Source of the DNA: Apostichopus japonicus
Taxonomy: Eukaryota; Echinodermata; Holothuroidea; Aspidochirotida; Stichopodidae
DNA length: 64,000 bases
Direction of reading: 5' to 3'
Assembly (NCBI RefSeq): GCF_037975245.1
Contig: NC_092569.1
Coordinates: 13,846,501-13,910,500, forward strand
Numbering within the stretch: position 1 is the stretch's first letter; every line of letters begins with the position of its first letter. Below are positions 21,796-63,016 of the stretch, in pieces. Made by a program: the position numbers and the translations under genes. The notes under the pieces were generated by a model. It worked only from the letters and a program-made list of their open reading frames with translations, was not told the DNA's origin and did no database searches.

Positions 21796-24700
21796 ATGCG
21801 TTTAACTGTTGTAACCTTCGCTTGTTTATTGATGTGTGACAACTTCATGGCCACACATGTCACAGGTATGTACGATTATATCCTCTGTATGTAATAAGTG
21901 TTACTACTGTTATACGTATTGCTGGTTTTTGTCGCTCGCTTAGCATGAATTACTGGTATTGTTTTGTTTATTGCAAGACATCTATTTGCCTTCATGTGCT
22001 ACGTATGTTGTTAATCAATGTTTTCGGGAATTTTATTATTTCTGTCGAGGCTCTACTGACCTTGGCAAGAACTATAGAAATACATTCTGCGACATTGTGG
22101 TGCTCTCTTCAATGAAGATCAAAACAGGTTGCTGCAATCTTTGAAATGATAGTATGTTTTGTGGGAAAGTATATTCTTCATTTTCTGTGGGGAAAACGTT
22201 TAAATCATTCGTTATCCTTGTCATGGTATACATGCTATCGTTTTGTTTTTTATTATCTCATCTCCCTACAATGTAATGTATAGGTGCGTGAGTGTGTGTG
22301 TGTGTGGACGATTGATATCAAAGGTCAAATTGGTCTAAATTGTGCGAAAGAGTATGTTGCGAACTCCTAGACCGCAAGTCAGATCAAGTTCAAACTTGGT
22401 AAGTCGGTGCCCGATAATGTAAACTTGGGCCTGTGTAACTGATGACTCCTGAGTTCTTAGGCAAACAAAATAAATGTTTTTTTTTACCATTTTCTGCTTG
22501 TCAACATGTACTAAACATTCATTAAACCACACGATCAACTATATTAACGTTTATATTCAACACAGGTGTTTGTCAATTTGAGTTATACAAACAATCTGTT
22601 CACCTTCAAGGAGGATATTTTGAAGAGGACACTGGTAAGTGGCCTATAAGTGAATGGCTTTACTCTAAAATTTAAGTTTCATATGTTGTAACCCGATTCC
22701 AAAGACTGCAATCAGTAAATTTCGTATTGTCATAGCTATCTATTACTTTGGAAAAATGACCCTTTAAACAGCGGATGGTCATCAGAAACTTTACTGTAAC
22801 ATACCAACCATTAAGTCACTTCCTTAAATGCAACACAGAATTCAATAGAAAAACAAGTAATTTGGCTTATCTTTAAAAACAAAAACGACAAAAACGTCCG
22901 AAACGACAGTTTTGATTGAGGGGATTGATTTCATCTTCTGCAGGCTGCTTTTTTGAAATGTCTTATCTAGCAAGTTTATGCAACTGGTTGCTTCTAATTG
23001 TACGAACACTTCATACATATCACTTTTAAAATCTTTCAAAATTTAGGCTTTTCATTTTTTTCATTTCGTTTTTTGATTCTTGTTACGCACACACTGTTGT
23101 AGCAGTCTTTTATTGCAAGGCGAGAGCAACGCGATCACTTGCTTTAAACTAATATTCCAATCGCCAAGTTTTAAAGATGCTTGTTATGACAATTTGAGAA
23201 ATGTATGTATGCCTATCTCACATTGGGAATTTCTTTAACAGAGTCAAGTCCGAAAGCAGCAACTCTGAAGTCTTATCATATATATAATCTTCAAAGAGAT
23301 GAACTACAACATGCAGGTAATGAAAGAAATTCTAAATATTTGTGATTCGTTAAGACCACTTTTTGCATAGTTTTTACTACAGTAACAACAGTGCATAGGA
23401 ATTACGTATTTGAACTAGTACTAACATTAATAATGATATTTTCATTTGTGAACATTGTGTTGCATGCCGATTATCATGCTGTATTTTCCCCCGACTTTTT
23501 TGTATCATTGCAGGCTAATGTAGAACAATTTGATTGGTAGCGCTGTGCATGTTTAACCTATCCATAAACAAGAATCTAGCTATAAGAGCTTTCTAGTCTT
23601 GATCATCAAACTGCGAATCAATAAAAAAAGTACCATTAAGGGTTAGGAATTACTATCATTCTCTGTTATAATACTACACGTCTTTGTTTAGTTTCTTCAA
23701 CAGATGCAACGTCTAGTCCACCTACTGTTAAAACTCATGAGACAACTGATCGTATTACAGGTAAATATTGTACAGATATATTACTAATCGATGTTGACGT
23801 AAAGTTACCTAAATTAACGGGAGGTGTATAGGTATTTGCAGAGCATGATTAAACACGAGTGGAATCGCACTTTAAAAACATAACGAAACACAAGTTATAC
23901 CATTATAATGAGATTTAGTATCTCATTTCACAAACTCCATTCTGTGCTAAAACATTCAAGAACGATCGAAATGTGTTTATTTACTGAACATTTTTATACT
24001 TCTAAATTCATGAATTGAATATTTCTCTAACAGATCAGAGGCAAAACCTAACCACATTGGGCAATTACAAGACAACAGACTGATCACTGAAATTAACACA
24101 CACAAATTATTTGCAAATCTTCTAAAATTGATACGTACATATAATATGTCATTTTCTCAACTTGACTGGACGTAAGTGAGATTCTTAGGCAAAACGACCG
24201 TTGCACATGCGTTAATACGATTCAAAGAGAATGTATAATTCTTAATATTATTTTAAAATTTAAGATTCATGTATGTTTACCTTACCTGTCGGACAAATCG
24301 TCAAATCCAACCACAGTGCAGAACAATTGCCAAACATGTGGTCATAAAAAAGGTAAATATACGCCATTATTTATAACTAGCATTCCTCTTTCCAGTTTCG
24401 ACCAAAGTTTATGCATTCCGACTAACATGTTAGATAGGTGACTGTTATAAGGAACATTATTCAATTCGACGTATAAGGAAGCACATGACGGGTAAACATC
24501 ACTTTATACAAATAAATGAAATTGTTCTTTCTTAATGTTGATTTATTCTTCAAAATTCATGTAGTTTTAATTGCTTTTTTCTTTTAAAAAGATCAGACGT
24601 CAAATCCAACCACTTTGGATACCCACGGAACAAGTGATCATAATACTGGTAAATGTTATAGATAAGTAACTTGCATTCGTTGTTCTTGACAATAATTCAT

Positions 24701-62600: not shown

Positions 62601-63016
62601 GAAATTTGATTGGCTATTGGAGATATTCTGATTATGAAATGAAACTAACCTATTTAATATTTCAAAAAGCTACTGTAAATGTTAAGTTTTGTGATTATAT
62701 ATAGAATTTTACCGTTTACACATTATTTAATAAATATAAATAAGAAACGTTAGACGGCCCGGCGGTAGGCAATTCACATATGTCTTTCTATTCTTAAACT
62801 TGTATCTCCAATTGTGAACGGAAGGAATTTTACGCTGAATGGTATACGGCTTTAAATCACCTGTTGTAGGCATCCGTGTTGTTGATAACCCAATTGTACT
62901 TGTTGTTGTTTTCGTTGACGTGTCAACGGTTGACGTAAATAATCGCATTTCATCCGTAGAAGGCATCCATGCTGAGTTTATTCCTTCCAATTCTATTTCC
63001 AGTTCAATTATCTCAC
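59674..63016 (-). CDS. Fibrinogen-related gene 4 (5' end outside window): Thr-rich stalk, TIL, VWC/EGF, FBG
   Basis: Minus-strand exons in order: 62861-63016 (stalk, MPSTDEMRLFTSTVDTSTKT and STTRMPTTG), 62098-62303 (TIL, 206 nt), 61286-61576 (VWC/EGF and FBG start, 291 nt), 60536-60803 (FBG, 268 nt), 59674-59924 (FBG end, 251 nt). In-window part is 390 aa plus stop. Lengths and splice phases equal those of gene 3, and the sequences are very close (for example EGF CECKESYWGNGTTC in both), so they are recent tandem duplicates. FBG has FWLGNE, DQDND, NCA, GGWWFNAC and GICLLQRN...KNCSV. The missing 5' exons (signal peptide, Cys module, more stalk) should lie to the right of a LINE fragment at 63118-64000, which would then be intronic. 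Confidence 0.87.
60075..60174. repeat. (TA)n microsatellite in a gene 4 intron
   Basis: About 100 bp of TA repeat with two AAATAT interruptions, inside the intron between the last two exons of gene 4. Gene 3 has no such array in the matching intron. Confidence 0.95.

Follow-up and report, generated by a model that had tools for sequence, protein, structure and literature searches.

Four predicted stalked TIL-TILa-EGF-fibrinogen genes as part of a very large fibrinogen-related family in the sea cucumber Apostichopus japonicus

The window analyzed here is a stretch of 64,000 nucleotides from the sea cucumber A. japonicus (NCBI RefSeq assembly GCF_037975245.1, contig NC_092569.1, positions 13,846,501 to 13,910,500 of the forward strand); coordinates are those of the window unless stated otherwise. 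It holds four genes, called g1 to g4, which all share the module order TIL - TILa - EGF - fibrinogen (FBG) and all have Thr/Ser-rich stalk exons. As judged from the sequence, the four genes make up a small part of a fibrinogen-related family that is very large and located mostly on one chromosome, and the claim of an earlier note on this DNA, that they belong to a probably secreted, stalked FBG family, is upheld. With modest confidence, the products of g1 to g4 are read as secreted, stalked and multivalent recognition lectins that would act in a calcium-dependent manner; any lectin, immune or matrix role that we infer for the family is drawn from sequence comparison.

The head regions were located by an all-versus-all comparison of the open frames of the window and were then bounded by splice sites. 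Each head consists of four exons (TIL; TILa/EGF/FBGa; FBGb; FBGc), with g1 on the plus strand and g2, g3 and g4 on the minus strand:

27917-30725, plus strand: head region of g1
27917..28131, plus strand: g1 TIL exon, phase 1-0
28530..28820, plus strand: g1 TILa-EGF-FBGa exon, phase 0-0
29404..29671, plus strand: g1 FBGb exon, phase 0-1
30478..30725, plus strand: g1 FBGc exon with stop
36131-33337, minus strand: head region of g2
35926..36131, minus strand: g2 TIL exon
35261..35551, minus strand: g2 TILa-EGF-FBGa exon, GC donor in the next intron
34439..34706, minus strand: g2 FBGb exon
33337..33581, minus strand: g2 FBGc exon with stop
47463-44611, minus strand: head region of g3
47258..47463, minus strand: g3 TIL exon
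46454..46744, minus strand: g3 TILa-EGF-FBGa exon
45300..45567, minus strand: g3 FBGb exon
44611..44861, minus strand: g3 FBGc exon with stop
62303-59674, minus strand: head region of g4
62098..62303, minus strand: g4 TIL exon
61286..61576, minus strand: g4 TILa-EGF-FBGa exon
60536..60803, minus strand: g4 FBGb exon
59674..59924, minus strand: g4 FBGc exon with stop

The exon phases are identical in all four heads (TIL 1-0, TILa/EGF/FBGa 0-0, FBGb 0-1, FBGc 1-stop), so that the single exon plan proposed earlier for the four genes stands. The TILa/EGF/FBGa exon is 291 nt and the FBGb exon 268 nt long in every head, the FBGc exon 245-251 nt including the stop. The modelled heads comprise 336-340 amino acids with 26 cysteines (27 in g4) and no internal stops. 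Head introns are of the GT-AG type, with the sole exception of a GC-AG intron in g2, whose GC donor follows the TILa-EGF-FBGa exon at 35261 (minus strand). The 291-nt exon is a single open frame in which TILa and EGF are followed by the initial ~38 residues of FBG, and the EGF module and the start of FBG are therefore joined. A join between the TIL/EGF and the FBG exons had been named earlier as a check on the gene models: for EGF and the FBG start it is read within one open exon, whereas the joins from stalk to TIL, from TIL to TILa and onward to FBGb and FBGc are based on splice sites and phases.

Pfam models were applied exon by exon, with cut-offs of 24.5 (TIL), 27 (TILa), 28.5 (EGF_3) and 22 bits (Fibrinogen_C). 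The search of the four proteins against domain databases that had been suggested gave TIL (30.4-36.1 bits), EGF_3 (29.5-31.9 bits) and Fibrinogen_C in both the FBGb exon (74.4-88.7 bits) and the FBGc exon (51.8-61.8 bits), all above the cut-off in four of four genes. Fibrinogen_C was not reported for the TILa-EGF-FBGa exon in the window and stayed below the cut-off in that exon of two relatives (loci L038 and L042). TILa passed its cut-off in g3 only (28.6 bits), with g1, g2 and g4 at 23.3-23.8 bits, 3 to 4 bits short; in the relatives L038, L040 and L042 it reached 27.9-35.4 bits, above the cut-off. The half-module joined to EGF had been described as VWC/TIL-E-like; the junction itself is correct, but TILa is the better label, since VWC, where reported, scored 12.9-13.2 bits, under the cut-off.

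Regarding the N-terminal parts, candidate signal-peptide exons, judged by hydropathy rather than by a dedicated predictor, were located in three genes (g1, g2 and g3). A signal peptide had been assigned to all four genes; g4 runs past the window end, where further stalk exons and a Cys exon lie (locus L026). Thr/Ser-rich exons of phase 1-1 are present in four of four genes, in agreement with the stalk described earlier, and the stalk contents of Ser plus Thr are 42% in g1 (a doubtful sixth copy included), 51% in g2 and 41% in g3. The short Cys exons of g2, g3 and g4 (the last outside the window) together follow the pattern C-x(10-12)-C-x3-C. The N-terminal features are:

21796..21865, plus strand: g1 candidate signal-peptide exon (MRLTVVTFACLLMCDNFMATHVT), ending in phase 1
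23692-23760, 24592-24648, 25034-25093, 25930-25989 and 26841-26897, plus strand: g1 stalk, five Thr/Ser-rich exons of 57-69 nt, phase 1-1 (stalk span 23692..26897, including a sixth copy near ~24.3 kb)
38994..39078, minus strand: g2 candidate signal-peptide exon
38101..38178, minus strand: g2 short Cys exon, C-x11-C-x3-C, phase 1-1, no Pfam match
36610..37389, minus strand: g2 stalk, a single Ser/Thr/Pro-rich exon of 780 nt with an expanded Ser-codon microsatellite, no Pfam match
54133..54214, minus strand: g3 candidate signal-peptide exon
53863..53958, minus strand: g3 short Cys exon, C-x12-C-x3-C, phase 1-1, no Pfam match
52945-52694, 52323-52240 and 48197-48039, minus strand: g3 stalk, three exons, phase 1-1, no Pfam match
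62861..63016, minus strand: g4 last stalk exon, the others lying beyond the window end

The size of the family was estimated from the genome assembly (671.6 Mb in 35 contigs, the window being on contig C9). A DNA pattern for the core of the FBG middle exon, FWLGN[DE], gave 580 exact matches (307 + 273), compared with 11 for the reversed control, an excess over background of ~570; some of these matches, which were not inspected singly, may be broken copies, and the pattern misses exons that differ from it. When the g2 TILa-EGF-FBGa exon was used as query, all of the 150 candidates scored (the best 150 of 1,210) matched with E <= 1.8e-15; 140 of these were on C9, including the four of the window itself, and the other ten on C1, C5, C7, C20 and C22; 144 of the 150 are free of stops. 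Some pairs of loci have equal scores, which could reflect recent segmental duplication or haplotypes left uncollapsed in the assembly. The Pfam search for FBG yielded at least 169 matches on C9 and other contigs (best 150 of 2,733 candidates scored), as against zero matches in 14 control genomes, and no relatives were found in viral contigs. Elsewhere on C9, at 6.25-6.40 Mb and 10.98-11.39 Mb of the contig, FBG motif matches occur in regular pairs ~2.5 kb apart, with many repeats, and are perhaps tandem arrays of two-FBG genes.

The architecture extends beyond the window. Profiles were used to scan 14 further places with a TILa-EGF exon, a non-random sample chosen mostly for likeness to g2, and 13 of them had a TIL exon upstream in the same orientation. 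The TIL exon was whole in nine of them (L030, which is the same gene as L039; L031; L032; L033; L034; L035; L037; L038; L042) and partial or interrupted in four (L028, L029, L040, L041); none was found at L004, where only ~430 bases upstream were covered. Among nine FBG loci scanned with 1.5-kb flanks, out of 20 retrieved from the Pfam search for FBG, a TILa-EGF exon was present only at L004, and at L002, L007 and L008 the start of FBG is not preceded by this neck; the TILa-EGF neck is therefore one FREP (fibrinogen-related protein) architecture among several in the genome.

A variant of the arrangement was observed in three of six regions of 8 kb (L037, L038, L042), where TIL is directly preceded, in the same orientation, by a pair of FBGa and FBGb exons, with no FBGc exon found between them. 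The junctions were read in two of these regions, L042 and L038, and are phase 1 on both sides, so that TIL, TILa/EGF/FBGa and FBGb form a symmetric phase-1 unit, as the stalk exons do. Two-headed proteins of the order FBGab-TIL-TILa-EGF-FBGabc are predicted from this arrangement, which may alternatively represent two neighboring or broken genes. Duplication or insertion of a symmetric cassette leaves the frame intact, and growth of the repertoire may have proceeded in this way, by means of both the stalk exons (1-1) and the TIL + TILa/EGF/FBGa + FBGb unit. A wider proposition, tentative and on the unlikely side, is that hundreds of exon-shuffled lectins are encoded on one chromosome for germline-encoded recognition of microbes or self, their stalk exons and TIL-TILa-EGF-FBGab units being symmetric phase-1 cassettes whose free multiplication yields receptors with one or two heads and with short or long stalks. 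If it were true, such a chromosome-scale system would rank in breadth with the largest receptor families known from invertebrates. Neither the phase-1 cassette logic nor the two-headed variant was found described in the literature searched (mostly titles and abstract openings).

In a comparison with the PDB, the g4 head matched MFAP4 best (E 3.7e-33, residues 129-306, an alignment that starts in the TILa-EGF exon, spans FBGb and ends within FBGc), followed by matches to ficolins, tenascin-R, FIBCD1 and fibrinogen gamma, with 71 distinct PDB sequences at E <= 0.001 in total. The TILa-EGF-FBGa exon of g2 alone gave weak matches over residues 60-93, to the start of FIBCD1 (E 0.0034) and to fibrinogen gamma (E >= 0.025). 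Regarding the TIL exon of g2, the best matches were EGF modules of the LDL receptor (E 1.1e-4, residues 6-58 or 16-58). The only TIL-domain proteins matched at E <= 0.5 were FCGBP, with E values of 9.8e-4 and 0.0033, and VWF, with E values of 0.011-0.03; these matches cover residues 3-63 of the 69. The FCGBP and VWF matches are in line with the earlier comparison of the TIL and EGF modules with zonadhesin- and mucin-type proteins, but, because the LDL-receptor modules score better, the likeness is in part a general one of Cys-rich sequences.

That TIL serves as an active serine-protease inhibitor, delivered to wherever the FBG head binds, is improbable. Ascaris inhibitors carry their reactive bond in the C5-x3-C6 loop, and in the alignment the middle position of this loop is Lys or Arg in g2, g3, g4 and close relatives; the presence of Pfam TIL in all four genes also fits an inhibitor. 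The same position is, however, occupied by Asn in g1, by Ser in L037 and L038, and by Asp in L042. The TIL-TILa succession is that of VWF-type proteins, and no protease inhibitor was among the 17 PDB matches (E <= 0.5) of the g2 TIL exon.

The chief rival to recognition is a role in repair: the proteins would be structural components of matrix or mucus in repair and regeneration, similar to tenascins or MFAP4, with a head that binds integrins or matrix and with neck and stalk forming a gel-like layer. This is possible, though doubtful. The PDB neighbors MFAP4 and the tenascins are consistent with it, as are FCGBP and VWF as the TIL-domain matches, and in the available part of one report A. japonicus FREPs are tandem duplicates that are up-regulated during visceral regeneration (PMC5638244). 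A repertoire of this size nevertheless probably exceeds what a structural matrix protein calls for, and a FREP marks an immune-like coelomocyte cluster in Holothuria glaberrima, according to the part of PMC11925454 that was available.

For the recognition lectins favored here, the following mode of action is proposed. The odd number of N-terminal cysteines would allow disulfide links between chains, while a probably O-glycosylated stalk and a stiff, disulfide-rich neck would keep the FBG heads away from the N-terminal knot. Heads clustered in this manner could attach to microbes or damaged tissue through sugar or acetylated ligands, at high avidity, and the very large gene repertoire would provide many binding variants. 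The FBG heads contain a calcium-type Asp/Asn motif (DxDND) and paired cysteines.

Several observations weigh against this proposal. A short Cys exon had been reported for all four genes and was recovered in g2, g3 and g4, but no credible candidate was found in g1, where it was sought in three ways. No Pfam match was obtained in nine signal-peptide, Cys and stalk pieces scanned (a set without the signal-peptide exons of g1 and g2, four of the g1 stalk exons and the g4 parts beyond the window), and neither collagen nor coiled coil nor Ig was detected in them; since no N-terminal assembly domain was detected, multimer formation would have to depend on the unpaired cysteines. The calcium-type motif of g3 is DQEND instead of DxDND. 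Near the end of FBGc, a C...C segment in g1 to g4, L033, L039 and L040 replaces the W..W..YSL that a number of other FREPs in this genome have there; this may have changed the classical ligand pocket, and ligand specificity is for this reason not transferable from ficolins. Matrix proteins (MFAP4, tenascins) are among the FBG matches. Among nine sequences, the pooled ratio of nonsynonymous to synonymous differences (pN/pS) was 0.23 in TIL, 0.32 in FBGb and 0.39 in TILa-EGF-FBGa; in FBGc, compared among five, it was 0.43. The head exons are under purifying selection, a point in favor of the proposal, but the ratios bear no sign of diversifying selection and are weak support for an arms-race receptor, although they are averages over sites. 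The nine sequences were the close paralogues g2, g3 (which is L036) and g4 together with six loci; the comparison excluded g1, the distant loci L037, L038, L040, L041 and L042, and two broken copies (L028 and L029).

The earlier limitation of the cluster to four genes did not hold, as the window contains relics of further copies:

19613..19726, minus strand: degraded fifth TIL exon, outside the interval first described, best E 1e-9
33143..33259, minus strand: relic FBGc exon 3' of g2, partial and diverged, weak match (E 0.003-0.25)
44165..44289, minus strand: relic FBGc exon 3' of g3, with a broken frame

The two FBGc relics directly 3' of g2 and g3 suggest repeated partial duplication of 3' ends. 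Additional FBGc exons are located ~8 kb past the window end, the first of them with an internal stop. Such remains raise the question of whether many copies, possibly including some of g1 to g4, are functionless and decaying by-products of tandem duplication. The relics, the stop past the window end, stops in six of the 150 scored TILa-EGF exons, the partial or interrupted TIL exons at four loci, and the sixth g1 stalk copy, which was missed by the phase 1-1 scan and lacks an AG acceptor where one is expected, are in line with decay. On the other side, the heads of g1 to g4 are free of stops and keep their splice sites, and pN/pS is 0.23-0.43 across the paralogues compared; decay on this scale is considered very improbable.

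The cluster is adjoined by a minisatellite of 13 kb with ~16-bp units (GTTGTCTGCGTGTCTG) at window positions 2593-15913. A 43-bp array is located at 1-2325, and a tandem pair of 477 bp, 97% alike, at 17590-18495. An open frame at 63326-63940 (minus strand), between stalk exons of g4, yielded no Pfam match; we take it to resemble the 3' end of a reverse transcriptase of the non-LTR (long terminal repeat) type.

Among the other contigs of the assembly, C35 is mitochondrial; at COX1 sites that we take to be conserved positions, AAA codes for Asn and ATA for Ile. Its order is COX1-R-ND4L-COX2-K-ATP8-ATP6-COX3-(S)-ND3-ND4-H-S-ND5-(ND6)-CYTB-F-12S-E-T-control, continued after the control region by P-(Q)-N-L-(A)-W-C-(V)-M-(D)-Y-G-L-ND1-I-ND2-16S, presumably the echinoid/holothuroid pattern. 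Code and gene order mark an echinoderm and speak against a cnidarian source, which low GC and an open frame resembling a reverse transcriptase had suggested; COX1 features and the published FREP expansion point to a sea cucumber in particular. The tRNAs and main reading frames were read directly, the names of the frames being our assumption, and ND4L, ATP8, the rRNAs and the control region were placed by position. Extra tRNAs reported by ARAGORN inside other genes of C35 (Ser-tct, Asn-att, Met/Ile-tat) were taken as false. COX1 pieces also occur on contig C29 (14745-31219), as a nuclear or assembly copy of mitochondrial DNA.

Compared with known systems, the consecutive TIL and TILa modules are those of VWF-, FCGBP- and zonadhesin-type proteins; unlike in VWF-type proteins, no VWD or C8 match was found in the exon pieces scanned, and TIL-TILa leads to EGF and FBG. 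MFAP4 is closest to the g4 FBG head, and tenascin-R is closest to the last FBG exon. Tenascins also have EGF modules; they differ from the present genes, in which a TIL-TILa neck and a Thr/Ser stalk are present and no fibronectin-III match was found in the exon pieces scanned. Ficolins and tachylectin-5 share the FBG head with its calcium-type motif, the PDB match to tachylectin-5A being limited to the FBG part. Ficolins use a collagen stem, whereas the stem here is Thr/Ser-rich, without a collagen match in the pieces scanned. Calcium-dependent binding of acetyl groups, as in ficolins and tachylectin-5, is putative for these heads, which have the motif and the paired cysteines but an altered C-terminal segment.

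Regarding FREPs in the broad sense, defined as any proteins with a fibrinogen-related domain (FReD) in the available part of PMC12074976, g1 to g4 belong to them, all four having Fibrinogen_C above the cut-off. The FREPs of snails are described in the same part of that source as soluble, calcium-dependent lectins, some of them multimeric, and these gastropod FREPs (VIgL) resemble the present family in being multigene and in having a C-terminal FBG head. They carry one or two N-terminal immunoglobulin superfamily (IgSF) domains and a helical linker (PMC12074976); the genes described here have a mucin-like stalk and a TIL-TILa-EGF neck, with no Ig match in the nine N-terminal pieces.

Among the closest systems is also the FREP expansion of A. 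japonicus itself, reported in the available text of PMC5638244 as the most expanded family of that genome, "mainly clustered at LG02", with tandem duplicates and 21 copies on one scaffold. Both concern an FBG family that is strongly expanded, tandemly duplicated and concentrated on a single linkage group; the assemblies differ (805 Mb there, 671.6 Mb here), and the main text there, supplements aside, is without this architecture, with zero mentions of EGF, lectin, trypsin inhibitor, TIL domain, mucin, domain architecture or zonadhesin. That work is cited in the available part of the H. glaberrima genome paper (PMC13228809); fibrinogen occurs in one reference only of a brittle-star genome paper (PMC11310086) and is unmentioned in another A. 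japonicus genome paper (PMC6018497). No TIL or TILa together with FBG was found in literature titles and abstract openings, with full texts and supplements largely outside this search and absence accordingly unproven. The earlier note did not recognize a described family; the four genes do fall within a very large expansion of the published type, although their module order was undescribed in the literature searched. The FREP expansion on one linkage group was thus already known, and the TIL-TILa-EGF-FBG architecture predicted within such an expansion appears to be new. The published expansion was tied to regeneration, in the text available (PMC5638244), without an architecture that would suggest a mechanism. 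A stalk, a TIL-TILa neck and an FBG head built from frame-neutral cassettes, mostly on one chromosome, provide a concrete molecular model, by which it becomes testable whether the expansion represents an immune repertoire, a repair matrix, or both.

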